A program made the translations under genes and the position numbers. Positions 4,236 through 59,200 of a DNA stretch of 64,000 nucleotides are shown in pieces; the first letter of the stretch is position 1, and every line of letters begins with the position of its first letter. The notes under the pieces are model-generated. The model was not told where the DNA came from. It made no database searches and was given only the letters and a program-made list of their open reading frames with translations. The stretch is from the NCBI RefSeq assembly GCF_026151205.1, contig NC_087078.1:9192675-9256674 (forward strand), written 5' to 3'. The stretch is from Bolinopsis microptera. Taxonomy: Eukaryota > Ctenophora > Tentaculata > Lobata > Bolinopsidae.

Positions 4236-7200
4236 TTAAACAAGTTTAGAACAACAGATACAGACTACAGTTGGTAGATCATTGTTCTGATACGTGGTCC
4301 TAATGAGGTAGACTAGGTAAGTAATGAGGGAGGTGATGTCTGCTATGTGGGTTATACCGGCTACTATCAGAGTCCTTCTCTTCCTGCGACACTGGAAACA
4401 AAACTAGTTTCCAGCTAGCTGGGTAAAATACTACGATTTAATAAACTAGCTTTAAATTAGCTGGGCATTCGTTTGTAAAAGCATTGGGGCCTGAGCGAGG
4501 AAAGTTTAACTTTTATTCATAACGTTATATCTTATGAGGGCGCATAGATAAGGTGCAGATGTAATGTTGAATGTACACTAGGTTCCAAGAATAGTGGTGC
4601 GTAGTACGTATTTTTTTGGAAAACAAATATAATAATATATAACAATATAATTTACAACAATGTATATCGACCAGATTTGAATCATCCAATTAATTGAGTC
4701 CATAGGACTCATAATTAGCTAAGCTTTGATACAAAGCATGCGAACTCAAAGTCGCTTTCACAACTTTTGTCAACAGAATTGACAGAAGATCTGGTTCCTC
4801 TTATACACAGGAGAACCAGCTTCCTGATAATAAATGAAAGTTTACATCTTAAAAAATTTACAACATCTGAATAATTTTGTTGAGATTTATATGCTATTTT
4901 CTCACACAATAATCTAAAGAATGTTCTCGCTTCTGGCCCGCTGCCACCCGTGACAGAGTACACCAGAGGACAGAAACTCCCATGTTCTACATTCAGAATT
5001 CTCTCGTTGTATAACCTCCGCTTCTGAGTCTCAGCTCTCTCGTATATTTTTATTACAAGGTACGTAGTATCTGTGATTAGTTAGGGTTGCTCCTTTGTAA
5101 AGACATCTGTAACCATGTACCCCATGTATCTTGACAGGGGGTTGTAATATCCTTAACTCGCTCTACTTTAAATATTACATTGTAGTTTATAGGTTCAGGT
5201 AAATGGGACAATATAAGGTGGAGACGTGACGTCATAATAGGTGAAATTAGGTGAAATTAGGTGAAACTCATTCACTTTTACTGTCCTGTTTATTATCTTT
5301 TTATAGAACAGTATATTTTATACAGCATTGGTAACACGATGTGATCAAATTGTTGCTACACAGTAGAATTAGTATTCCGACCAGATTGTGTTTAGTCGTT
5401 AATAATAATGCTTATTATATATAACAATTTGGTCACGATCTTACATTTCAGGTTTAAAAAGCCACTGCTGCGATATTATCGTATTCCAACCCAAAGTAAA
5501 AGTTAGCAGAGACATTATTTAAATCTTTTCCATCCTGTAGTACAGAGACTAGAATCAGAACAATGTAGTCCTTGGGGGCGTGGCCGACACTTGTTGACGC
5601 GCACCAAGGACTACATTGTTTCTGATTCTAGTCTCTGTACTACAGGATGGATTTAATGTATATTCTTATCGCACGTTAAGAGAGACTAGGGCAGTAGACA
5701 TCATGTGCTCCTTTATAAAATCAAACGTCAGGATCAGATCTGAAAGCTTATTGCGAGTAGCTAACTAGCTGATCATGTTTGTGAGAACACTTTTCTTTCT
5801 TTCGATATAATGTCTAAACTACTGTAAGAAGTACATATTCAGTACATTTGTCATTTGACTATTGGAAAGTGTAAAAACGAAACTTTTAGCAGTTCATATC
5901 ACATGCACTAACATTGTGTAATAAACAGCTGTAAGTTTTTCCGGCAATTTTCGCCTAAATCCTTAAAAGTAGCAATAGTTCAGGATCCCAATCAAGCTCG
6001 ACAGTGCAGTGTGTATAGAACAGCAGGAGATAGTGTGACCTTATATGGTAGTGTTGCCATGGTAACATTACCATATATGGTAATATACTCCCTGTGGGGC
6101 CAGGAACATTGGAAATTAGTTAATAAGATGCAGTGTGACTGTGATATCAAGGTGATAAAAGCCATCAGTTTATTGCAATTTTACTTGATATTCAGATTTA
6201 TCTACTACTGAATATCAAATAAATTGTGGGGGGGGTCCAACCCGATCATTTCCGATCATTCCGATCCCGATTTTGGCCTCATCAACCCTCATATCGGAAA
6301 AATCGGGAAAATTTAAATCTTCCCTCTGAGGTTTCTAGGCGATATAGGTAGCTATTTCTGTACTTAAATATGACAAGAAATCGATTGGTGGTGGTCCCAG
6401 AACCCCAAAATAGTTTCTTGTTCCAAACAAGAATCGTTTCGTCCGAAAAACAACACACTGTCGTATCAACTCTTGTTTGACAGAAACATCCACCCCGGTC
6501 CACAATTGAAAGAGGTACGGTTGGTAATAATAATCGTAACAAATAGCGAACGCTTTAGTAACTTTTGATTTAAATTGTCTCCACAATTTGTAACAGGCTA
6601 TCTGCAGAAATGGGTAGCACGGTTATCTCTTAGATACAAAGAATAGTTTACACAATTTTTAATAACATTAAAAGGGATGAAAATCACTTTTTTTTAATCA
6701 AAATCTTTATTTATCATGTAACAACTTTTCCATAGTACTGGAGAGTAAAACTATGTTAAACAAAAAAATTCTACAGCACATTTTGAGTCAGTAACAGTAA
6801 CATGTCAATATGTTACAGACTCACATGCGTTTAAAAACATTTTAGTAACAATAAATTGTGTAAACTGATGAGGAGGAGGATAAGGACTGAAGAAGAGGAG
6901 GACTGAGGAGGAAGAGGAGGAGAAGGAGGAAGACTGAGGAGGAGGAGGACTGGGGAGGACTGACGAGGAGAAGGAGGACTGAGGAGGACAGAGGAGGAAG
7001 ACTGAGGAGGACCAGGACCAGGACTAGGACGATGAGGACGAGGGGGGGGGGGGGCCAATGACTACCAATGGAGACTTTTGGGGACTAATGGGGGACTAAA
7101 AATCATGGGGACTAGAGGTCAACTCGTTGACGTAATTCACCATTTGTCCCCATAAGTCCCCAGAATTTTGACAGTTATTTATGGTTTTCAAGTTAGTTAG

Positions 7201-7430
7201 GTACTCTAACAGCCCTCAAGTAGCTCCCAAGAAGTCAGGAATGTCCAGTGACCATTTATAAATATTAAAGACTTCAGTCTTGAGAAGTTTACGATCTGGT
7301 CTGGAGAAGCCAGATTTTTTGAAATCTAAATGGGGACTAATGGAGACTTTTGGGGACTAATGGGGACTAAAAATGGGGACTCGGGGTAAAATCGTTGACG
7401 TAATTCTCCAAGTCCCCAAAAGTAGTCATT

Positions 7431-7478
<48 letters not shown>

Positions 7479-10400
7479 ACGAGGACTAAGGACGAGAATG
7501 AGGACGAGGACTAAGGACGAGGACGAGGAGGACTGAGGAGGAGGACTGATTAGGACGAGAAGAAAGAGGAGAAGGAGGAGGAGGATGAGAACTGAGGAAA
7601 AGAGCAGAGAACAGAGCAGACGACTGCTGGAGGCAAGAAGGATGACTTGGGTAGTTCCAAACTGGGGAGGAGGGGCGGAAGGACCCGACGTACGGACAGC
7701 CATTCGGAGGATGACTGAAGCATGCGCAGGGCGGACTGCAGGCCGAGGCGACAGGCCTATGGGTGAGGGAGGAGGGGCGGACAGACGCGCCAAGTAGGCG
7801 ACAAGAGGGAGGGGCGGCCCAAGCAGGGCCGGCCTAGGCCGGGGCAGGCAGGCGGAGGAGCGGACTAAGGACGAGTGAGGACCTCCCCGGCTGAGGCCGA
7901 GCGCGTGGCCGCGGACGGAGCGACCTGAGGCGGCAGGGACTGCTTTTTATCGGGTGGCGGCTCCGGCCGAGGAGTCGGAGGAGGCTGAGCCCCGGCGGCC
8001 TGCGGCGGGAGGAGGATCAGGCGACATTGCGCCGGACGGGGGCTGCTGACAGGCGGACTGCGGCGGCGGAGGCTAAATGCGGCGGCAGGATCAGGCGGAG
8101 GCACCTCCAGGCGGAGTCACTCAGGACGGTGGTGAGGCGGAATGAGATGAAGGACCTCCGGAGGCAACTTGACGAGGCGGCCCTCCAGGCAGGAGACCTG
8201 ACGAGGCGCGGCACGGACAGCTGCGGCGTAGGGACTCAGGAGGAGCAACTGCAGAGGCGGAGACTCCAGGAGAGGGACAGAGGACGAGGGCCTCATGAGG
8301 AGGAAGACGGGAACGAGGACGAGGAACCTCAGGAACCCCCGAGGACGACCAAGTGGAGGACTGAGGATGAGGACAGATGGCGGAGGAAGACGGAGGCGGC
8401 ACATGCAGGACGGACGTAGGCTTCTCAAGAAGCGGGACAGTACGAAGGCGGCCTGCGGAGGAGGTATGAGGAGGGAGGAGGAGCCTGATGGCGGAGGAGG
8501 AGGACTGTAGAGTCGAGGCGTCGGGAGGCGCATTGGCAGCGCTGGAGGACTACGGAGGCCGCACTGGACGCAGGACGCCCTGGCACATAACACGGCCTAG
8601 AGTGGCGAACGGACGACTGTGCGCAGGAGGCCAGCAATTTTCGGTCAGGCACGACAGCACAGGCGCCATGAGGCCCAAAGGATGAACCGCGCGTGCAGGC
8701 CCAGAGTCCGAGCGCCCAGGGGGCGCCTGCGGCGGTCCGGCCACGGCGGGGCCGACGGTCGGCCGCCTGGGTCACCTGGGGCGCCGGGTCCCTGCCGTGG
8801 CTGCAGAGCCGAGGCCGCTTACTGCGCACGGCACAGAGAGCGGCAGACCGGCCATGCCGTGCGGAGGCGCGCGCAGGGAGGACAGACGCGGGATGGCGCG
8901 CGCGGCGGCCTGATGAGACGGGCCCGAGGCGGTCATAGCTCAGCTGTCGGCGGCAGGCTGCGGAACCGTCCGGCAGCGGATGCACCGCCTCTGCCGCGGA
9001 CAGATGGAGGGCGATTGGCCAGGCGACACGAGGCGAGCGGCAGCGGCGGTATCACTGCGTGCGGGGTGAAGTAGGCGGGCCCCGGCGCGCCGGGTCGACA
9101 CCTGCGGACCTGGGAGTAGGACCCAGAGGCGGAGGGGCCTGCGCGGCCCGGCTGGAGCGCGGCCCTGAGGAGGAAGGACGAGGACGAGAGTCCCCCTGAG
9201 GAGGACTGAAGAGGGCACCGCGGAGAGAAGGCCTCTGGAGGAGGACGGATGACCGCCTTAGGGGCGGGGGGCAACCATACATATACAGACGTGGGGGGCT
9301 AGGGGAGGCGGGTGTGGTGAGGACAGGTAGAGAACGAGGCCAACTGGGTAGGAGATGTGGGGGCGGCGCAACGGTGGGGGGGGGGAGGGTGTCCCGGTTC
9401 GGTGAGAGGGGGGGGGACAGGCGGGGAGGAGGACATCCTAAATGTTTGGAGGGACTCCACGATGTACATAGACAGGGGGACACTGGTGAGGGGCGGGACT
9501 CCGATGGTGTTTTTTTATTAGTGTATCACTCGGACGTGGTCTGTTATTTTTCTGTATTTTTTGTCTGTTTTTGTCCGAGTTTATTTTGTCCCCCCAAAAT
9601 ACTTTTTTTGGGTCCCGGAGTTTTATAAAATATAGGGTACCGAACGGACACGAAACATGGATTCCCCCAGCCAAGCATGTGGTTACGATACAAAATGTAC
9701 TTGACTAATACATTTAAGGTGCAGTGTACTAGTGATATTATGGTATGTTTAAAGACGGGACCACAAAATGACAAAATATAACCCGGTACCTAGTGTTGTA
9801 CTATTAATACATAATAACAAGTAACAGGGAAAAAATTAATGAGCAGAAACAATCGATCTCACGTCAAGAGGCCAAAGCACCTGGGTCTGGGAGTATATGA
9901 CAACTCCAACTAGTAGTGAGCATACTAGCCCCTGCAGTGGAAAAACTCATAAAACATACTATTGGGATGTCCAATTGGTTTGTTTTCTCGTAACAATATA
10001 GCATATGTAGGGGTTCTGGTTGAATTATATCACTTCTGAGAGGTTTTAGAGATCGATTCTGTAAATTTCTCAATTTTCCGATTTTTTCCGATTTTTCCGA
10101 TTCCGATTTTGGCCTCATCAACCCTCATATCGGACATCGGGTTGGACCCCCCCCCCCCAATTGTACAACATGTAAACCTAGCAACCACTCACCTCATCAA
10201 TACAATTCCTAGTCTGCTGAGCTTTAACCATGTTCTCAATAATGGTAACCATGGTACCCAGTAACGACATATACTCGTGTAGTGACTGTGTAGAGTTTCT
10301 CATCTGCGCTATCACTTCGTCTGATACCTGGGAGTTGTGTTGTGTAAAAGTGAGACTAGTGAAAGTGAAACAGAAAGTGAGACTAGTGAACGTGAAACTG

Positions 10401-16109: not shown

Positions 16110-16322
16110 CAGTGGGCGTAACTTAGGGCCCCGCTGTGCAGGGGGGGGCGCCGGTACAACGGGGGGGGCGCAATTTTTTCCTGGACCATTATTAAAGCCC
16201 CTATCACTAAAAAAGACAAAACAACACCCGCCTTTAAATATTGTGAGTAATTTTCCCAATGTCCAATTTAATAGCGTTCGTGGCCCCGCGAACAAAAATA
16301 TTGGGAAACCCATTTAAATGGA
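16110..16322. mobile_element. Left part of a hAT-like MITE
   Basis: Starts CAGTGGGCGTAACTTAGGGC and soon reaches gctgtgcagggggggg then gcgcc. This matches the left end of the complete element at 36258-36525 (cagtggcgtgacgaagggcc ... gctgtgcggggggcgcc). The right end is missing; the large G-run element begins directly after it at 16323. Confidence 0.55.
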
Positions 16323-16594
16323 GGGGGGGGTGTCCATGTCCGTCTATGTCCGCTATGTCCTGTCCCTTTTTTGGATTCTATGGGAAACCAACGACGCTGT
16401 TATTTTTTGGGACATTGGCCGGACACGGAACGGACTTGGCGGGACCCGGACGGACAATGGCGGACCCGGACGGCCATTGGCGGACTTGGCCTGACATTGG
16501 TGACATTAAGCGACACATTGGTGGACATTAGCGGACTACACATTTTGAGGACTGAAAGAGTTACTGCAATGCGTACATGAGGGCGCGGCTGGGC

Positions 16595-18930
16595 TGAGAC
16601 GGAGGACATGGCATGAGGAGGCTGGCCTGAGGAGGATAAGGCTGAGGAGTGAGCCCTGCGGGAGGACTGCCAGAGGAGGAAGCCTGAGGCGTGCACGGGA
16701 GGCGACACGCATCAGCCCCCCCAGGCTGGCGGCGTCTCGCCGGAGGCCCCATACAGGCGGACCTAGGATGAAGGAGGAGCACAGAGGGAGGCATGCCCTG
16801 CAGCGGGAGGCGGCCACCGCCACACACGGCCACCGGCGGCGGCACATGACAGAAGGAGGAGGACTGAGGCGGGGAGTTGGCTAGCATGGAGGAAGGCTTG
16901 CAGGCGCTGCCTGAGGGCGTGGACCGGGCGCGGAGGCGGCGCGCGGCGGACCGCGTGACTCGAGGCGGCGGCGCCCCCGAGGGCCCCCACCGGCTTACGC
17001 CTCGCATACTTAGCGTTTTATGGCCCCCCTCACGCGGTCCCCCGCGGGAAATTGATAAACGGAGGCTCTACATTTAAACTATCCATACAAATTTGTACCG
17101 CGGCGACCATGGGACATTATTTCGAGCGCGCATTTTCGTAACATGCCGCGCGAATCCTTATAGATCCAGGCGGAGCCAAGGACGTCTGCATTGCGGCCGG
17201 AGCCGGGCTGACCCCGGCGAGGCAGTAGCCCCGAGGCGGAGGAGACCCGCCGGGCGGAGCACCCCAGGAAAAGGCCCCGGAGTAGGAGAGGTAGGCCTGG
17301 GGATGAGGCGCACACAGATGAGGACCTAGATGCGGAGGACAGTAGGGGCCGGCGGCGGAGGCGGAGTGTCCCACGGCGGGCGGGCGGCCGCGGGCCAGGG
17401 TATGCATTCCGGCCGCCCCCGGCGGCCCCCAGCATGCGGAGGAGGGGGCGGGAGGGCCCCCCCGGCGGCGGAGGCGGTGCCAGTGCCGGTCCGGGATCAT
17501 GGGCCTGACGATGCCAGGTCACGGCGGCGTACCAGATGCGACCTCATATTTCTGAGTGAGGCGATGCTGCGGCGGATGGCTGGGGCGGCAGGCTGCGGCG
17601 TGCATGCCCCAGCGGCTGCAGAGCTTGCGAGGGCGGGGGACGTGCGGCCTCCTCGGGCGGCCCCCGGCGTACGCGGGCGGGAGGACGGACTCATGAGGGG
17701 CGGCCATAGGCAGATCTGACGCGCGGCGCCTGCCGGGCGCCCTGGAGGGCTCGGCGGCGGCATGCCCGAGACACGGCGGAGCCCGGCTCCCGGCTGGGGG
17801 CCTAGGGAGCGGCCCCTGTTGCGTTGCGGCGGCCTGGCAGCTCCGGCTGCTGTGCGGCGTCCCCCCGGCTGCGGTCGGCCCCAGCGGGCCCGGCGGGTCT
17901 GCCCGCGGAGTCGATCAGCCGCGGAGGCGGCGGTCCGCCCGGCGGGCGGCGGTACGACTGCGGCGCTGGCTGTGCGGCATGCCAGCGCGGGTGCCCGGGG
18001 CCCCCCGGCGGATCGGCCTGCGCTCCGGCCCGCGGCGTGCCCGGCACAGGCGGCGACCAGCGCCGTGAGGCGAGCCCTGAGGCGGGGCCATCGCCCTGCG
18101 GAGGCCCAACGGCGGCGGCGTGCGGCGGTGCGGCGGCCGAGCCACGTAGGTCTGCCGGGCGGTTGGCCCAGGGCGCGGCCTTCTGTGATAATGTGGCGGC
18201 GGTCGGCCCAGCATGCCCGTCTGCGCGGCGGCCCCCCCCCGAGGAGGCCGGAGCGGCCAGGGGACGCGGCGACCGCCGGCGGCGGGCAGCAGCGGCGGGC
18301 GGCGGCCCCCGTAGGCGGAGGACTGCGGCGTCAGGGCTGCGGGGGTCGGGCTTACCAGCGGCGTGGCCGGCCGGCGGCGGCTGGCCTCCGCCACACTGGC
18401 TGGGCGGCGGCGGCCCCCGGTGCGGTCGCAGCGCCGCCGGCTGCTCCATGCGGGGGCCAGCGCCCTGCGGCGGGCCGTCGGACTGTGCTGCGGGCGTGCG
18501 GCTGCTGACAGCCACTGCGGCGGCGGCGGGGGCCACCGGCGGCGGCCCTGCGGCTGCGGCAGGCGTGGGGACTGCGGCGCCTGCTAGCGGCGGCTGCCCT
18601 ATGCGGCGGCCAGCGGGCGGCCGCGTGGGCCGCGGTCATCACGCTGCGCTGCGGCCCCCTAGGACGGCCCCCAGCGCGTGCCTTCCGCGCGGGGCGGCGG
18701 ATTCAAGGAGGAGATGCAGGCCGGAGTGCCTGGGGCAGGCGGGCGGACAGTGGCGGCCCCAAGCGATGGCGGCGCCCTTGCTGACGCATGCGGCGGCGTA
18801 CGGGGCGGATCGGCCATGCGGCTTGGTGCCGGCGGGCCGCGGTGAACTCTGCCGCACCTGGCGCCCCCGTGGTGGGAGAACGGAGGGCCGACTATACGGT
18901 CGGCGGCAGCCTCTCCCAGTACTTTCCCCA
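16595..18930. repeat. GC-rich degenerate gcggac/ggcggc core
   Basis: Dense gcggcggag/ggcggcgg-type sequence, at the extreme nearly lacking A and T (17.75-18.7 kb). Left of it, at 16420-16540, degenerate copies of 'ggacattggc' and 'ggacttggcg' form a bridge from the terminal decamers to the core. Frames of 240-376 codons are open on both strands at the same place (for example 17762-18508 plus, 17802-18536 minus). They encode Ala/Gly/Arg/Pro strings, so I treat them as artefacts of composition. Confidence 0.65.
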
Positions 18931-19144
18931 TTATATGTCCGCTCTATTTTTTAGTTACCCGTTATGCACCAACTCGGGTACCGACCGGACAACAACAAGC
19001 ATCCCCCTAAAGACCCGCAAAACTTGCACAACAATTTTTTTTTTAGCAATTTAGGTGTCCATTAATGTCCGCCTATTCCGCCTATGTCCGTCTATGTCCG
19101 CCTATGTCGTCTATGTCTGTCTATGCCGTCTATATCCGCCTAGG

Positions 19145-19208
19145 TCCGTCTATGTCCGCCTCTGTCCTGTCCTTTTTGGATTCTAGGAGACAAGCGGACA
19201 TAGACGGA
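19145..19208. repeat. 15-bp perfect inverted repeat near the element's right end
   Basis: tccgtctatgtccgc (19145-19159) and gcggacatagacgga (19194-19208) are exact complements with a 34-base spacer. It lies in the subterminal decamer array. Confidence 0.85.
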
Positions 19209-19344
19209 CGTGACACCCCCCCCCTTTTATGCTTCAAGGGGTGCAAAAAGCTGTAGGGGGGGGGGGGGGCGAGAAAAAAGTACCCGACGCGTACTGCGGT
19301 TGCGCGCTACTGCAATCAAATTAAACATGATTTTGAACCAGAAA

Positions 19345-26473: not shown

Positions 26474-27566
26474 AATGAAAGACTTACGAGAGAGTGAAAC
26501 GAAACACTTTGAATATCTAAAGACGAATTTAACGGAGAATATGGGAAATTTGTTAGCTAAGGGGGTTCCCGTGATTAACAAAGTACCCTCAGACCCACAA
26601 GCCGACAGTGGCATGGATGAAGCACTTCGCACACTGCATAACATAACGGAGGAACATAAAAGCATCCTAAAAGAGATGAACAGAGTAGAGTTCAAGAGAA
26701 CTGCAATTGGACATCAAGGTGTTTCTACAAGACACACAAACCTGGATCTTTTCAGTACCATAGCAGAAGATAAAACATATGAGGGCAAACAATACTACAT
26801 TCACCAGCCATCAGAAACCACTGTTAATGACTCCATGACAGTCCTAGTCTCAAGAGGACTCTCAGGAAATTATCTTAAAAACAGTGCAACTATTAAGAGA
26901 AACTTCAATAAATATTTTAAAGATATGGCCATAAAATCGACATTTGTCACCAAAGGTGGATCATTGATGATTGAGCTCACATCTAAAGAAGATGCAATAA
27001 GAGTAGAAGGATCATGGAAAGGTGATTTCTTTGCAAACAGTAACATGACTACAGAATGCAGGATCTTAGAAAAGCTAAGCTGGGCAGTCATTCTCAAAGG
27101 AGTACCCACAAACATTCAGGATAGTGATCTAACAATTTCTGTGGAAAGGTGTTATCCAGGAGCTAGGGCAAAAAGATTTGTGACACGGGACAACATTTCT
27201 CTGATCAACTTTCAGACTAAGGAAGACTATGAGAAATGCTTAGGAAACGGGTTAAAGCTCGGACAGGTAATTTATACTGCGGAAGAGTATAAGCCGAGAA
27301 GGAGAATCATCCAATGCTACAATTGTTACAGGTTTGGCCATGTTGCTAAACTTTGTACCCAAAACCATGCAACATGTAGCAAATGTGGAGACAATCACCA
27401 CTCCTATCAATGCAAGAGTAACCGAAGAGACTACTGTATTAATTGTGATGTCTTTGGCCATGTAGCTACAAACAGAGATTGTTCAGCATACCAAAATATT
27501 GTCATGAAACTCAACATGCAACCAAACAAATGTTCAAAATCACCCACACAACCCAACAGTAGATAA
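26454..27566 (+). CDS. LINE ORF1, C-terminal gag-like part with three CCHC knuckles (370 aa)
   Basis: Begins in the frame that continues the coiled coil. A nucleic-acid-binding (gag/RRM-like) middle region follows, then three zinc knuckles near residues 283-345: CYNCYRFGHVAKLC, CSKCGDNHHSYQC, CINCDVFGHVATNRDC. The stop TAA overlaps the start of ORF2 as TAATG at 27564-27568. Such stop-start overlaps are known from the R1-clade LINE SART1, where ORF2 is made by termination-reinitiation. That mechanism is inferred here from layout alone. Confidence 0.8.
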   Translation: MSQMKAEMKDLRESETKHFEYLKTNLTENMGNLLAKGVPVINKVPSDPQADSGMDEALRTLHNITEEHKSILKEMNRVEFKRTAIGHQGVSTRHTNLDLFSTIAEDKTYEGKQYYIHQPSETTVNDSMTVLVSRGLSGNYLKNSATIKRNFNKYFKDMAIKSTFVTKGGSLMIELTSKEDAIRVEGSWKGDFFANSNMTTECRILEKLSWAVILKGVPTNIQDSDLTISVERCYPGARAKRFVTRDNISLINFQTKEDYEKCLGNGLKLGQVIYTAEEYKPRRRIIQCYNCYRFGHVAKLCTQNHATCSKCGDNHHSYQCKSNRRDYCINCDVFGHVATNRDCSAYQNIVMKLNMQPNKCSKSPTQPNSR

Positions 27567-29935
27567 TGATCTTTGGCCAAATAAATATAGCAAAGATGTC
27601 AACTAACTCTGAGATGACACTTGACAAGTTTATCTACGAAAATGAGATACTCTTGATGGCGGTTCAAGAAACAAGCTCTTGGACTCAATCAGACGGAAGT
27701 TTCCTTAATAAAAAGGTATTTCATAAAGCTGGGGACATAAATAAAGGGACAGCTGGGGTAGCGCTCGTCATTGATCCTTCACTACATCCAGAGTTGGTCT
27801 ATGACCTTAACGTAGAAGAAGTTGATGCTGTTTGGTGCCAAATAAAAGTTGAAGGAAAGAGATATTTGGTGGGATCAGTTTATTGCAAACCTTGCAATAA
27901 CTCGAATGATTCAATAAGAAAATTTGAAGGACTTCTGGCCCACATTGATAAAGCAAGAGAATTTAAGGCTAAATATAAATTCAACTCTCTTCTCACATAT
28001 GGAGACTTTAATGCAAGACATCATGACTGGGGAGATCATGTTACCACGCAGCGAGGAAAGAAGCTTCTAGACTACGTCGAAAAGGAAACCCTAACGCTCT
28101 GCTCACCATACGACTGCACATTTGTCTGTACAAATGGAGGAAGTGTTATTGACTTAGTGTTAGCCGAAGGCCCCATCATCTCAAAGTTGGGAAATCAGTG
28201 GATGGATAAAGATGTTGAATTATTTTCAGGTGCCCCAAGAAGAGGTCACTATCCGGTGCTTCAAGAAATCTGCAGAGGGATCCCAAAATCAGACACTGTC
28301 CCCAGAGTGTGTATGGACTGGAAAAATGCAGACTGGAAAAGATGGTCAAATGCAATCGAGACTAACTGTCAACATCTTCGTTCGGCCCCAGAGTTATTAA
28401 ACCAAGGGGATCAGCTATGGCAACAGTTATTACATAAAATACAGGAGGCTAACCGAATGTTCATCCCTCAGAAGACAGTATCCATTCATTCAAAACCCTA
28501 TTGGTGTCCTGCACTTACAACTCTATCTAATGAAGCTCTAGAAGCGAAAGACAGATTCAAGCAAAGGTCAACTCCCAGAAACAAGGCCACACTCACTGAA
28601 AGCATTGAATCATTCAAAAAAGCGCTGATTAAAGAAAAGAATGAATGGATTCGTGACAGAGTTGAAGCACTAAACACCAAAGACTGCACTCAATTCTGGA
28701 GAAAATATAAACGAGTTTTTGGGGCCAAAACTGACAACTTCATCTGCAACCTCAAAGACTGTGACTTGCTGGTCACATCTGAAAAAGATAAGGAAGAGCT
28801 GTTATTTAATACTTTCTTCACAGGAAAACACCTTCAAAACCAACCCAATGACCAAGAGCACGAAATGCATGTAAATAATGAGTTCAGTAAATTAAAGAAT
28901 GTTAGCAGCAAATCTGCAAGTAGTTACAGTGAAGATGATCCGCTGAACAACCATATTTCCATAGACGAGATAAGATCAGCTATAGAAAGGCAAGAAACAA
29001 ATGACAAATCATGTGATGCAGACAATATTCACCCCACCATCCTCAAACACATTAAAACAAATTGTCTTCACGTCTTGCAGATCATATTTAACTGGTGTAT
29101 GAGCACAGGAAAATGGCGGTGGAAATCTTCCGATGTAACATTCTTGAGGAAAGAAGGAAAATCCAGCTACATGTTACCTGGTGCTTATAGACCGATTTCC
29201 ATATCATCCTACTTTGGAAAGATTTGTGAAAGAGTGCTAGATAAAAGATTGAGACTCTTCCTGGACATTGAAGGAACTCTTGATGAAGATCAGGAAGGTT
29301 TTATTGGAGGGAGATCAACAACGCGATATCTTTTCAGAATGCTGGCTAACCTTGAGGAAGTTAAACGACAGAAGCTGGCATGTATAGTGCTTTTCCTTGA
29401 CTTCGAAAAGGCATTTGACAGTGTTCATCTTCCATCACTATGTGTCAAACTATCAACTCTCGGTATTCAAGGAAATATTCTTAACGTGCTGAGAAGTTTC
29501 CTGTTCAACCGGACGATATGTCTAAAAGTGAACAACTATAAAGGAGAAAAAAGAAAATGCACAATATTTGGACTACCTCAGGGGGCTGTACTCTCACCTC
29601 TCCTCTTTATCCTATACATAGCAGACATGACGCACAACACCCCGGAAGAGGTAAAAAGATATCTAAGCTGCTACAAATTTGCTGATGATGGTACACTTAT
29701 GATTTCCTTTGAGAACATCTCCGGATGCCATGAAAAAATGCAGATGGTATGTGACCACCTTAGCAAGTGGTGCATCAAGAACAAGCTAGTAGTGAACTGT
29801 GATACAAATAAAACAGAGGCAATAATCTTGAAAACTGCAGCCTATAATCTTATAATGAAGAACAGAAACCTGCAGAATTATGTATTAATGGGAAAAGCAT
29901 CAACTACGTCAAAAGTACGAAGGTCCTTGGGGTAA
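27566..29935 (+). CDS. LINE ORF2: endonuclease and reverse transcriptase (789 aa before frameshift)
   Basis: Residues about 1-230 form an EEP endonuclease: GQINIAKM at the start, VQETSSW, YGDFNARHHDWGDH near 150, VIDLVLAEG, RRGHYPV. RT motifs follow: LFLDFEKAFDSV at about 610 (motif A), FGLPQGAVLSPLLF at about 667 (motif B), YKFADDGTLM at about 704 (FADD active site). The frame stops at 29935, but the protein clearly continues in another frame (ELCINGKSINYVKSTKVLG from about 29873). A one-base change near 29865-29880 therefore breaks this copy. Endonuclease and RT residues look intact. Confidence 0.85.
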   Translation: MIFGQINIAKMSTNSEMTLDKFIYENEILLMAVQETSSWTQSDGSFLNKKVFHKAGDINKGTAGVALVIDPSLHPELVYDLNVEEVDAVWCQIKVEGKRYLVGSVYCKPCNNSNDSIRKFEGLLAHIDKAREFKAKYKFNSLLTYGDFNARHHDWGDHVTTQRGKKLLDYVEKETLTLCSPYDCTFVCTNGGSVIDLVLAEGPIISKLGNQWMDKDVELFSGAPRRGHYPVLQEICRGIPKSDTVPRVCMDWKNADWKRWSNAIETNCQHLRSAPELLNQGDQLWQQLLHKIQEANRMFIPQKTVSIHSKPYWCPALTTLSNEALEAKDRFKQRSTPRNKATLTESIESFKKALIKEKNEWIRDRVEALNTKDCTQFWRKYKRVFGAKTDNFICNLKDCDLLVTSEKDKEELLFNTFFTGKHLQNQPNDQEHEMHVNNEFSKLKNVSSKSASSYSEDDPLNNHISIDEIRSAIERQETNDKSCDADNIHPTILKHIKTNCLHVLQIIFNWCMSTGKWRWKSSDVTFLRKEGKSSYMLPGAYRPISISSYFGKICERVLDKRLRLFLDIEGTLDEDQEGFIGGRSTTRYLFRMLANLEEVKRQKLACIVLFLDFEKAFDSVHLPSLCVKLSTLGIQGNILNVLRSFLFNRTICLKVNNYKGEKRKCTIFGLPQGAVLSPLLFILYIADMTHNTPEEVKRYLSCYKFADDGTLMISFENISGCHEKMQMVCDHLSKWCIKNKLVVNCDTNKTEAIILKTAAYNLIMKNRNLQNYVLMGKASTTSKVRRSLG

Positions 29936-31753: not shown

Positions 31754-34700
31754 TTAATAATTTATTAAATTATTAGCTATTTTAGATTTAATAATAATAA
31801 TAAATCGAAGGCCCATTTTCTGTTTTACAAAAAGTGATTCAATATGAGACTTGGCAGCAAAACCCCATACAAGGCTGCAATAATTAAGGTGTGACTGCAC
31901 AAAACTTTGATAAATTTGAAGACGTGCTTCGAGAGGCAGATATTTTTTAAGTTTGTACATGACTCCTATGTATCTGGACATTTTCATTTTCATGGCAGAG
32001 ATATGATGGGACCAGTTTAGTTTATCATCTATTATAACTCCTAAAAAACGGGCTTCTGTTTTCTCTCAATTGTAACACCAGAAATTGCCACATCACGATA
32101 ATTAAGATTTCTTTGTCGAGAGAAGATCATATAATTTGTTTTCTTAAGGTTGAGAGCTAAACCATTATTATCTACCCACTTAACTAAAGCATCGCTAAGA
32201 GTTATTAGTTTATCGTAAACTTCATTAAGATTTTCTCCTATCAGGAAGATGTTGGCATCATCTGCGTACATAATGAAATTGGCTATATCTGATATTTGCG
32301 GCAGGTCGTTTATGTAGATTATAAAGAGTAAAGGTCCTAGTATTGACCCTTGAGGCACGCCGTATAAAATTTGGTTGGTTGAGGATTTTGACGAGCCAAT
32401 TGATACAAACTGTTTCCTGTTAGTGAGATATGACTTAAACCAGTTTAAGGCTTGACCCCTTATGCCGTAATGGTCCAGCTTGCGCAAGAGTATGGAATGA
32501 TCCACAAGGTCGAAAGCTTTGCTGAAGTCGATTAAAAGAAGTAAAGTTACCTGCTTTTTAGACGTTGAATTAAGAATGGTGTCTTTTGCGTTGAGAAGAG
32601 CATGTTCACAAGACCTACCCGGGCGAAAACCGTATTGGTTTTCACATAGTAATATGCTGTATTTATCTAAAAAACTTATAACTCGGTTATGCATTAGCTT
32701 TTCAAATACTTTAGAGAAAGAAGCAAGAAGAGATATTGGTCTGTAATTTTTTATGTCAGATTTAGATCCACCTTTGTGAATTGGGACCACCTTCGCTTCT
32801 TTCAAAGCCTGTGGAAAGATCCCCTGTTCAAAAGAACTGTTGACAACGTGGGCTAGTACACTAGTAAAACTGGGACAACTGTTAGCGATTTTTAGAGGTT
32901 CAATTTTAGTGTCTAGTGTGGCTTTATTCTTAAGCAGGTTTATGACGTCCTGAATTTCTGTGGCAGTGACTGGCTTTAAGTAGATACTACTTGGAGTGGC
33001 GTTGCGAAGTGTGCTATGGGTTCCACCAGGATCAAAAGTGGTCCTACTACTAATTTCAGACTTAATTTTTGGAGCGATGTTTGAGAAGTAATCGTTAAAT
33101 TTTTCTGCTACAGCTGCCGGAGTGCTGATTGAGCCGTCTTCGTCAGTCAGTTTTATTGAAGTAGGTTTAGATTTTTTCCTATTTAGAAGACTGTTTATCA
33201 TTTGCCACTGCTTCTTAGAATTTTCTTTGTTTTGCTCAAAAAATTTTTTGAAGTGCTTGTTTTTAGCTTTATCGATGTGTCTATTACAAAACTTCTTCAG
33301 ACGGTCATATTTACTGCGGTTACTATCAGATGGTTCCTTAACAAAATCATAATATGACTCATTTTTACGTTCTATAGCTTCTTCGAGCCAGGGCAGCATC
33401 CATGGTTTCGGATTAACACGTTCATTTTGTCTTCGTGATTGTCTTTTTGTAGGATAGGCAGACTCGTAAATCTTATTATAAGCCGTATTTAAATTATTGA
33501 ACTGTTCGTTGGCATCATTGGTATTGTTAAAAATTTCTGACCAACTTTCATTTATAATTAAGTCTCTGAATTTTTGATTGTTGGTGTCGTTAAATCTACG
33601 TGTTTCAGTTTGAGATACATTTTGTGAGTTAGACACAGAGCGGTAGCTGCTGGTTGGCGTGTTATCAAGATTTATTGTAGTGACTATTGCTAAGTGATCA
33701 GACATATCTGTCGTTAAGACGTTACAGCTTATTGTATCCTCAAGATTGTTTGTGTAGATGTGGTCAATAAGCGTGGCACTATGGTCCGTTAGGCGAGTTG
33801 GGCGTGATACAATTTGAATAAAACCGTAAGAGGACGCAATATCTATAATGTTCTGACATGCTTGGTCGCTGCTGTGCTTCAGTAAATCAAGGTTGAAATC
33901 TCCATGAAGCGTCATATGTTTACGGGTGTGTCTCCCTAGGTTGTGCAGCGTATTTTTGAAAATTTCTAGAAACGCTTCAGGTCTCCTAGCGGGAGAACGG
34001 TAAACATTGCCAATTATTTTCGTTCTGTTGTATCCTTTGCACTGATGGAGCTTGATAAATTGGAATTCGCCACTAGTATTAGTTGGTTCAGGGTTTGGAG
34101 TGAAAATATCAATTTTATCATAATCGACTACACGTTTGTGTACATAAGTGGCTAGCCCCCCACCTTTTCCAGATGGTCGAATTGGATCCTGGATAAATGG
34201 TTCATGAAATCCATCTAAGGTAACGTCGTTTATTCCGTTCGGTAATTTCCCTAAAGTGCAATTAGTTTCGTTAAAACACAATATATCATACTTATCATAA
34301 GTCTCAATATCATCACGTAGTTGATCTATATTCTTAATAAGGGATCTTATGTTCATAGAAAATGTTTTAAGTTGAGAGCAGGTAGATTTTTTCACGTTAC
34401 GTTGTTGTTTGTACTGACAACTAGTTAGGAAAGATGAAATATTGCTCCAAGTTGAATCTTGATGCTCTTCGTTGGTCATGGCGTCGCCAATAAGATTAAA
34501 TCGACTATTCTGATCGTACGGATTGAATATGTCACTATTAAGTTTACTGTAGTCGTCATAGATTTCATAGTAGGTTGCGTGAAATCCAGGAATGATACTT
34601 TCACAGCAACTCGTACAGCCTAAATTATCCTTAAAACATTTGACATGGACATTACTTTGGCACCATGAGCACGTGCGAATATTTCTAATAGAGTAACACC

Positions 34701-34761
34701 AGCCGCTGCAGCTTGGACATTTGATCTTGACTTTGTTTTCAGATGTAACAGTGGGTTCCAT
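31754..34761 (-). mobile_element. LINE with PHD-like N-terminus (CR1/L2-like), 3' end missing
   Basis: A 906-aa frame runs from ATG 34761 to 32041. The protein continues in another frame to about 31790 (GVIIDDKLNWSHHISAM, then YKLKKYLPLEARLQIYQSF). A one-base loss in an A-run near 32052-32062 accounts for the break. Residues 15-53 form a Cys/His-rich finger (CPSCSGWC, CSWCQSNVHVKC, CTSCC). Endonuclease motifs: MNIRSL, FNETNC, HGDFNLD at about 287, TDMSDHLAI. RT motifs: LLIDFSKAFDLVDH at about 743, YGVPQGSILGPLLF at about 797, MYADDANIF at about 830. The C-terminal thumb and zinc-finger part is absent beyond about 31790, so this copy lacks its 3' end, unusual for a LINE. Confidence 0.85.
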
Positions 34762-56200: not shown

Positions 56201-59200
56201 ACACAGTCAGTAATTCATCTATACATCACTAAAAACTAGTACACTAACATAGATAGCAATCAGGATGTTTTCCTAGACAGAATGAAAAGGGCTCTATTTT
56301 TATTGCTTTAGGTTTATTACTGATCAAAGTTTCAAATTCAAATGTAGGATATATAATATATTGTATAGCCATAGGTCGTGCTGTTTCATTTATCTTTCTG
56401 TCTAAAGTAAAATGCCTTGAGAGAAGTGACTTGAGGGAGCTGTGCAGACAGTGCAATAGACATGTCTCCTTTATAAGTTATTATTCTATTATAGTTAGAA
56501 AAGAATAATATTTTACAAAGGAATATATAATTCGCCTACATACTTGCATAATTTATATGCCGCTACGAGCATTGAACCATTGCACAATGCAATGCTACAC
56601 ATACAATCGCGAACACGTTCAATACAGTTGACCAGCTCATATCAAGCGAGTCCCTACAATTTCCTAACTTTCACACTAACTATCACCGTTAGACTGTTGT
56701 TTATAAATGCCAAGGTTAACATGTCAACTACAGAACACCTGTTATAATCTGCTCCATTCTGCTGGCGTTACTAGTCTGGTCATTTAGTGACATTGCACAT
56801 TAGCGACATTACACATTAGCGACATTACACATTAGGGACATTACACATTAGGGACATTACACATTAGGGACATTACACATTAGCGACATTACACATTAGC
56901 GACATTACACATTAGCGACATTACACATTAGGGACATTACACATTAGCGACATTACACATTAGGGACATTACACATTGACCCGTATATTATAGTAGAGGG
57001 CTGAACATTTTTTTGGGCCTCATGGAACCTAGTTTTTTTTTCTATATAGGCCCCAGATTATTCAACAAGCTGAATTATGTATTACTCTCTACAAGTGTGA
57101 GTACATTATATTACTACTCTTAACTCAGTCTCACCGAGTGAAAAGAACCAAATTACCCACCAACATACAGTCGCCAATCACACAATCACACAACAACTAT
57201 CACACAATCATACTTACACAGTTACACGGAGGGGTGTCATAGTTAACACAATGAAAACTCTATAACAACCCCCAAGTGACTACAATGTAGTCACGTGATT
57301 ACAATGTAGTCACGTGATCTGACTACATTGTAGTCACTACACGTATTATAATCGCTACTCTGATCAGTTACACAGGCTGGGAGATTTGTTCCTGAGCCTG
57401 ATATGTAACGTGTAAACTTTAACAATAGTTTATTAATCAAGCTTTAATAACCTTTAATTAATTAGTCGCGTGTTTGAATTTTGTTGGATGATATTTCATA
57501 ATGGTGACAAAAGCCCGCTCTATTTTGTAATGCTGGCATGAACAGTGAACATCACGTCTGAATTCTACATTTTACTTCTGACTTCTGTTATGTTGTGGAG
57601 TTTTATGGATGGTCTGTCCAGGACAGATTTACAAGAGGGTTCAGAGCTCCATTTGTATAACATTATTCAATATTGAAGGTCTTTGATTACCAAACAAGAT
57701 GATATCAGTGACATTTTTAGGTCAAAACTCAACAGTGAATGATGTAGTAGTACTAACTAGTAGAACTATAGTATGACGCACATATTGTAGGCGTTATGTC
57801 ACGTGACTAGGCGGTTTCAACACGTGACACGTATTAAATCACAAGTTAGCACTCCCGACATTTGTAGACATGGAGAATATTGTGGCTGACACTCTGACCA
57901 TGATATAACTGACAAGTTTTGTGTGTGAAGGAGAATTTACAGGGTGGTAAAGTTTTAGAGACAGAGTTAGCCGTTAGGCATGGGATAAACATGGTGGTAA
58001 AGTGTAGAGTCTACACTTTACCACCCTAACCATGGGATAAATATGGTGGTAAAGTGTAGAATCTACACTTTACCACCCTACCCATGGGATAAACATGGTG
58101 GTAAAGTGTAGAATCTACACTTCACCACCCTACCCATGGGATAAACATGGTGGTAAAGTGTAGAGTCTACACTTAACCACCCTAACCATGGGATAAACAT
58201 GGTGGTAAAGTGTGTAGTCTACACTTTACCACCCTACCCCGTAACTGTAGACGTTTCAGAGGAAGAGTTAGTGAGATGTGAGAGGTGGGTTTCAAATTGA
58301 GGGAACCCGAGATGGTATAGTGTTCTGAAAAACAACAGTTTACCCAGCGCTGGGAATCCACATCCCGTCAGGACAACAGCTGGTGTTGACTCTGAATGAA
58401 CGAGGCAATCCTGCTAGCACGTGATATATGAGAGAGAGAACACGTGATATAGATGAATTTACCTGTTTGTTGAGATCCAGGAAAGCAAAGTATTTGAACC
58501 TCAGGAGCAACATGTCCCCTTCTTGAACGTCCTGAAATGTAAACAATCGTTAGTATGTTTGAAAAGTAAACAATCGTTAGTATGTCACATGTTTAGAGGA
58601 TGTTACACAAATATAAAACCGGTTTTAGAAATTATTATAACAAGCATGTACCACAATTTAAATGAAGCGTGTACCACAAAGTTTGAATAAAGACAGAGTT
58701 TTGAGGAATAACATGCAAATCTTATGAGAAGTCTTAAACTTCACACGAAATGTCAACAAACTACTTAGCGGCTTGATAGAACGTTCAAATAACTATTCAC
58801 GGGGATTTTATTTTAAGAAGCACCGCAAAGTGCTATTTCAAATGTCTACTGAGAATGTGTGATATAATGTAGCACTGAGAAATATTGCGCTACTTTGACA
58901 AAAACTAATTAATTGCTACGACTGAAATAAGGTGCAATGAATTCAACGCAAATTTGATCGCCAACAGGGAATATGTTTTATACACATTTACCAACTACTA
59001 ATACTATAACTAAACAGTATTAGAGACTGGTCATGGTAGTGAGGTTGGATTCTAGCTTTTAATTTGATAAACTATTCTGTATCCAATAACCTTGGCACAG
59101 TGCTGTGTGTACTAACACACAGCACAGGACTCTGTGTATATATTTTCAGCCGCATTGTGTTCAGATAGTACTCACACTTAACACCCGCTTAACAGGTTTA

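Follow-up and report, generated by a model that had tools for sequence, protein, structure and literature searches.

A G-run transposon family with a purine minisatellite core in Bolinopsis microptera, and a probable artefact behind its GC-extreme copy

The stretch of the Bolinopsis microptera genome analysed here, which we call the window (64,000 nucleotides; contig NC_087078.1, forward-strand positions 9,192,675 to 9,256,674), raises the question of whether a transposable element can carry a GC island of its own making. At window positions 6228-10158, inspection of the sequence reveals an element with inverted G-run ends and AATTGT at either side, to which we refer as the family A element. 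An earlier interpretation drawn from the letters of the window (hereafter the sequence-only reading) had described a transposable unit with AT-rich ends and a self-made GC island as its core. The G-run ends, the AATTGT duplications and the AT-rich ends are all present in the window (Table 1). For the core we favour, with a probability of roughly 0.87, a two-layer account in which the family of terminal inverted repeat (TIR) elements is real and purine-cored, and the GC core of the window copy would be badly corrected long-read sequence.

The ends of the element are widely shared. The window's own assembly was searched with the terminal 113 bp, giving 228 first-look candidates, and of the 40 that were scored, 13 (the window copy included) were 100% identical and 27 were 99% identical over this length. 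The exact 16-base TIR pattern GGGGGTCCAACCCGAT occurs 103 times forward and 103 times in reverse genome-wide, compared with 0 and 1 for a control read backward, and the resemblance among the ends is therefore not due to chance. Twenty of the 39 other scored copies were fetched (fetched places carry L numbers below); they had been chosen for near-perfect left ends and are biased toward clean copies for that reason. Among the 18 copies with both ends in view, window included, 15 have exact target duplications of at least 5 bp, one has 4 bp and two have none. Reading six further copies at both ends gave 7 bp in L054, L058 and L059, 4 bp in L055 and none in L030 or L060, so that a target duplication of at least 5 bp is found in 18 of 24 copies, with sequences that differ from copy to copy. 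Duplication length is ambiguous where a target C or G merges with the terminal runs, and in the 12 unambiguous copies it is 6 bp in three, 7 bp in eight and 8 bp in one. L004, L008 and L016, whose right ends lie beyond the fetched 5 kb, were left out of the duplication counts and of the right-flank counts given below (L016 also out of the left-flank count), and L029 was set aside because the wrong side had been fetched and its right end was absent from the fetched sequence.

These data bear on the idea that the whole element is an assembly product or a chance resemblance, which we find hardly conceivable: homopolymer ends are indeed error-prone, but many near-identical copies sit in different flanks, and the exact duplications of differing sequence extend to mini-elements of 91 and 97 bp. 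With TIRs, target duplications and near-identical dispersed copies all found, the proposal of a transposable unit holds, and family A is a young, multicopy, apparently non-autonomous TIR DNA-transposon family, similar to miniature inverted-repeat transposable elements but large. The window copy also contains two 57-nt subterminal repeats, 91% identical and in direct orientation, that the sequence-only reading did not mention. The mini-elements, L058:94-190 (97 bp) and L059:92-182 (91 bp), have family A ends and exact 7-bp duplications and consist of hardly more than the two ends and one copy of the direct-repeat motif, a form that could arise from recombination between direct repeats. At L030:160-275 a further element terminates in a long C-run (ATGCCATTTTGTGCCATTG followed by the run), which suggests that G-run ends are widespread in the genome.

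The cores of the fetched copies differ from that of the window copy. Sixteen of the 20 could be delimited (L002, L005, L012 and L016 were not delimited for core composition), with lengths of 1.6-4.0 kb, and 15 of the 16 are an 85%-purine GGA/CTGA minisatellite (A.35-.36, G.49-.50, C.06-.07, T.08-.09); read out, the family A core is an irregular GGA/GAC/CTGA minisatellite. GC content in the other family A cores is about 51-62% per 200 bp, and the 18 uninterrupted clean copies share 61-97% of their 14-mers with other copies, a range that does not take in L012 and L020, which have nested insertions and share 0.41 and 0.38. The sixteenth delimited core, L020, is split by an insertion of ~1.7 kb, in which one frame, judged by eye, appears to be non-long-terminal-repeat (non-LTR)-retrotransposon-like. 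The purine core of L012 is split by a short AT-rich insertion, and together with L020 it indicates that nested insertions in such cores occur. Family A is a satellite-carrying transposon, with an internal tandem array that is homologous between copies.

In the window copy the purine GGAGGACTG repeats do rise to 59-80% GC per 100 bp, as the sequence-only reading had it, although its wording of ‘almost pure GC’ was overstated (7701-9150 is 70% GC). This climb belongs to the assembled window copy, as 200-bp GC profiles show it in none of the 20 other fetched copies. The other cores are purine repeat, and the window core is unique, starts within a purine tract and has private insertions beside it; a self-made GC island as a property of the element is not supported.

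Uniqueness was assessed by genome search, in which 781 bases of the window family A GC core gave a full match to themselves only, with 12 other matches covering at most 69 bases. A search pattern for noisy copies returned 677 + 633 matches against 759 + 688 for its control, mostly another repeat, with the first 100 places listed; among four fetched places of this search, one, L030, was a noisy family A copy. Shared 14-mers amount to 2.2% in the noise of the window family A copy and 0.8% in L030. Near 7600 in the window copy, shared 12-mers drop within 200 bp from 0.74 to 0.06; they come back only at 9600-9850, outside the core; in L030 they drop near 2990 and recover at about 4290. The window right flank has 10 private insertions among 19 right flanks compared, and the L030 left flank has 6 among 21 left flanks compared, while private insertions are absent from 19 of the 21 left flanks and number 0 or 1 in 16 of the 19 right flanks (L002 and L005 lack a delimited right flank, so that the 3 and 4 private insertions counted for them take in core sequence). 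Alignment of the window right flank with three clean copies gives 14 insertions, 1-2 deletions and 14-16 mismatches; six of the eight one-base insertions repeat a neighbouring base, and one of the 14 insertions, of 8 bp, recurs in L030 and is a real variant.

In all 20 comparisons with purine cores, the noise at 7701-9150 gives a better alignment than the same sequence reversed, a result that shows shared words and not strict collinearity, as the reversed control retains composition but not words. At L030:1535-1920 (G000:C5, about 6.81 Mb) a GA microsatellite turns into CG/CT-rich noise; this corrupted array starts about 0.55 kb upstream of the noisy family A copy, L030:2089-4922. Errors are clustered, affecting both GC-extreme elements of the window and, in L030, the element and the neighbouring GA array. 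A corruption of all GA arrays was ruled out by 50-bp profiles, with 0 of 20 sampled arrays affected (of 227 pattern matches). In two of the sampled arrays, L035 and L037, scattered windows further downstream are at 62-72% GC.

The other affected element of the window sits 6 kb from the family A element, has different ends that define a family B, and is unmentioned in the sequence-only reading. Its end gave 797 first-look candidates, of which 40 were scored; the 39 others match the window end at only 90-92%, and over part of it. Nine family B copies were fetched and eight were usable. Cores are purine in all eight, mostly 54-62% GC outside local insertions, and target duplications are exact and 6 bp long in seven and 5 bp long in the eighth, whereas the window copy has none. 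Unlike its purine-cored relatives, the window family B core is unique noise of up to 88% GC, with 0.4% shared 14-mers and 1,601 bases that match only themselves in the genome. The eight clean copies do not differ from one another over the first 85 bases that follow the G-run (28 pairs), and over those bases the window copy differs from each clean copy by 6 insertions, 3 deletions and 1 mismatch. The left flanks of families A and B are unrelated, yet 16-44% of the 14-mers in B cores also occur in A cores, and roughly 100 bp of the right-hand core junction are homologous between the families. The simplest reading of these similarities is that a core may have been exchanged or captured between the two families, and the presence of a related core in both makes satellite-cassette exchange or capture between transposon families testable. 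Just outside the family B element lie further G-runs (window 16138-16165 and 19254-19268), which may mark an older G-run element that was its insertion site.

Real GC islands would call for polypurine tracts that were hypermutated, with A falling and C rising, or under GC-biased repair, at few loci. The shift is indeed mainly from A to C (A.14-.26 and C.23-.33 in the window family A core, against A.35 and C.07 in clean cores, with the window family B core reaching A.08 and C.38), and the affected loci are clustered. We nonetheless regard such a process as very unlikely, in that the private insertions continue beyond the core in flanks that lack purine richness, the window family A copy has a clean left flank (1 private insertion and 2 private substitutions) and there are no intermediates among the fetched copies. 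A locus-restricted, insertion-rich, A-to-C-biased rewriting of long polypurine tracts in transposons and a neighbouring GA microsatellite is decidedly improbable; if true, it gives unique DNA of up to 88% GC inside young, nearly identical elements. It is very unlikely, too, that the GC cores are foreign DNA or truly different cargo taken up by the elements. Other interiors do occur, as in L060 with its unrelated ~4-kb interior and L020 with its nested insertion, but two unrelated families would have to capture similar yet non-matching GC DNA 6 kb apart, purine words continue through the noise, and no Pfam match at E 0.01 was obtained in the 10 of 13 stop-to-stop frames (at least 150 aa, two window GC stretches) that were scanned.

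An error of sequencing or of gap filling is the likeliest source of the GC-extreme core in the window copy. Badly corrected long-read sequence would occupy about 1.8 kb of the purine core and about 0.4 kb of the right flank: GA-rich tracts are hard for PacBio chemistry, noisy long reads used to fill the tract would yield the GC noise, and a purine repeat would in this way appear as unique GC-extreme noise. The assembly is described as the product of wtdbg 2.4, TGS-GapCloser and Pilon, and both PacBio continuous long read (CLR) and high-fidelity (HiFi) libraries were made for that study (PMC10232365). TGS-GapCloser fills gaps with selected error-prone long-read fragments that are corrected by Pilon or Racon (PMC7476103), and HiFi data are known to be weak in GA-rich tracts, at which coverage is lost (PMC9186530, PMC9668749, PMC9241371).

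Several points weigh against an error of this kind. TGS-GapCloser corrects its fill fragments, so that correction must have failed; the library used for Bolinopsis, CLR or HiFi, is not stated in the accessible part of PMC10232365; the GA-tract papers, in their accessible parts, describe missing coverage and not GC-rich miscalls; and the strong C+G richness of the error is without explanation. Purine tracts were well assembled in every GA array sampled (20 of 20) and every element copy sampled (28 of 28), and the clean copies had been selected by near-perfect ends. Private substitutions occur without noise elsewhere (13 in the left flank of L012 and 10 in that of L005, versus 2 in the window), and the case for an artefact draws on signatures in the sequence and on the assembly method as published, not on raw reads. 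The sequence-only reading had itself named two outcomes that would count against it, ends confined to this locus and a misassembled core; the ends occur at many loci, and a misassembled core fits the sequence signs. The GC-extreme headline feature should not be taken as biology, as it looks like a gap-filling trap in GA-rich tracts, and GC noise may affect other stretches of the same assembly, one more of which, L030, was found. What remains as biology is the family itself, young, bounded by G-runs and carrying a strand-asymmetric purine minisatellite.

Table 1. Features of the family A and family B elements in the window, in window coordinates.
Feature	Position	Strand	Basis
Left target duplication, AATTGT	6222-6227	.	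Read in sequence
Left TIR, G8-TCCAACCCGAT	6228-6246	+	Read in sequence; genome pattern count
Left AT-rich flank, kept among copies	6228-6868	+	Copy comparison
Left subterminal direct repeat copy, 57 nt, with CCGAT motifs	6242-6298	+	Repeat analysis (family D13)
Purine minisatellite core, clean part 1	6869-7041	+	Repeat and composition analysis
Nested 435-bp G-run TIR element, GGACGA duplications at 7036-7041 and 7477-7482	7042-7476	.	Repeat analysis, sequence
Purine core, clean part 2	7477-7600	+	Shared-word profiles
Putatively corrupted stretch: GC-extreme noise to ~9430, then insertion-rich right flank (approximate boundaries)	7601-9850	+	Uniqueness, flank alignments, shared words
Right flank	9431-10158	+	Copy comparison
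Right subterminal direct repeat copy	10078-10134	+	Repeat analysis (family D13)
Right TIR, ATCGGGTTGGA-C12	10136-10158	+	Read in sequence
Right target duplication, AATTGT	10159-10164	.	Read in sequence
Second GC-extreme element, family B ends (G8-TGTCCATGTCCGTC ... GACGTGACA-C9), without exact target duplication here	16323-19224	+	Ends, core, flank comparisons

The C44 tract inside the family A element is the end of the nested 435-bp element, which has its own inverted ends and GGACGA duplication, went unmentioned in the sequence-only reading and is itself repeated (221 first-look candidates in the genome, 40 scored). Elsewhere in the window, a Pfam scan places endonuclease and reverse transcriptase domains in long, non-LTR-retrotransposon-like frames at 27563-29935 (+) and 32041-34761 (-), and a 52-bp tandem repeat of five copies, whose unit contains an inverted repeat, occupies 57979-58236.

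For family A itself, the TIRs, the duplications, the copy number, the purine core and the mini-elements with intact ends are observed. A transposase supplied from elsewhere would recognise the G-run TIRs, perhaps with the subterminal CCGAT motifs, and cut-and-paste in trans with a staggered cut would leave the 6-8 bp (mostly 7) target duplications; the purine minisatellite would be a passenger, growing or shrinking by slippage or unequal exchange. Duplications of 6-8 bp are compatible with more than one transposon superfamily. In agreement with the sequence-only reading, no transposase was seen in the element, nor in the places for which frames were read, namely the window, L020, L055 (in part), L056, L057 and L060. 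The P-superfamily transposase PF21787 has 0 matches in the genome, yet also 0 in 14 control genomes. Neither the long TIR pairs (L054, L055 and L056/L057) nor the variant L060 yielded an autonomous partner. Two purine stretches are present in L054; in L055, 2.7 kb of other sequence comes after a purine core, with no transposase seen in the part of its frames that was listed; and L056/L057, with two different end types, were not counted together as one element. At L060:41-4510, family A ends surround the unrelated interior in place of the purine core, and its interpretation as a captured reverse-transcriptase fragment was dropped, as the sole Pfam match in four scanned frames, RRXRR, is below the curated cut-off.

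Parts of this picture resemble known systems. The HiFi dropout at GA-rich tracts (PMC9186530, PMC9668749, PMC9241371) is similar in that reliable sequence is lost at GA/TC-rich tracts that are later filled from less accurate reads; the accessible parts of those papers describe missing coverage and gaps, whereas here corrupted sequence is proposed to stay in the assembly. Among transposons, the Drosophila virilis foldback element Tetris / DAIBAM is described as a non-autonomous inverted-repeat element with a variable number of tandem repeats and an autonomous partner that was not found, as in family A (PMC4079207). The TIRs of Tetris are long, up to 1,735 bp, and hold ~220-bp repeats, and its duplications are 8-10 bp (PMC4079207), whereas family A has a TIR of about 19 bp, duplications of 6-8 bp and an irregular purine minisatellite in the middle. 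The satellite-carrying Helitrons of Crassostrea gigas share with family A a mobile central tandem array between conserved end boxes, but are described as rolling-circle elements, where family A instead has TIRs and target duplications (PMC8268682). In ctenophores, loop promoters of Mnemiopsis reportedly contain insertions of DNA transposons together with a GC-rich motif that has two CpGs (PMC12221973). A limited search of titles and abstract openings in the open-access literature on ctenophore transposons or purine minisatellites in inverted-repeat elements returned no description of family A. Transposons bearing tandem arrays are already described, and family A adds a further one.

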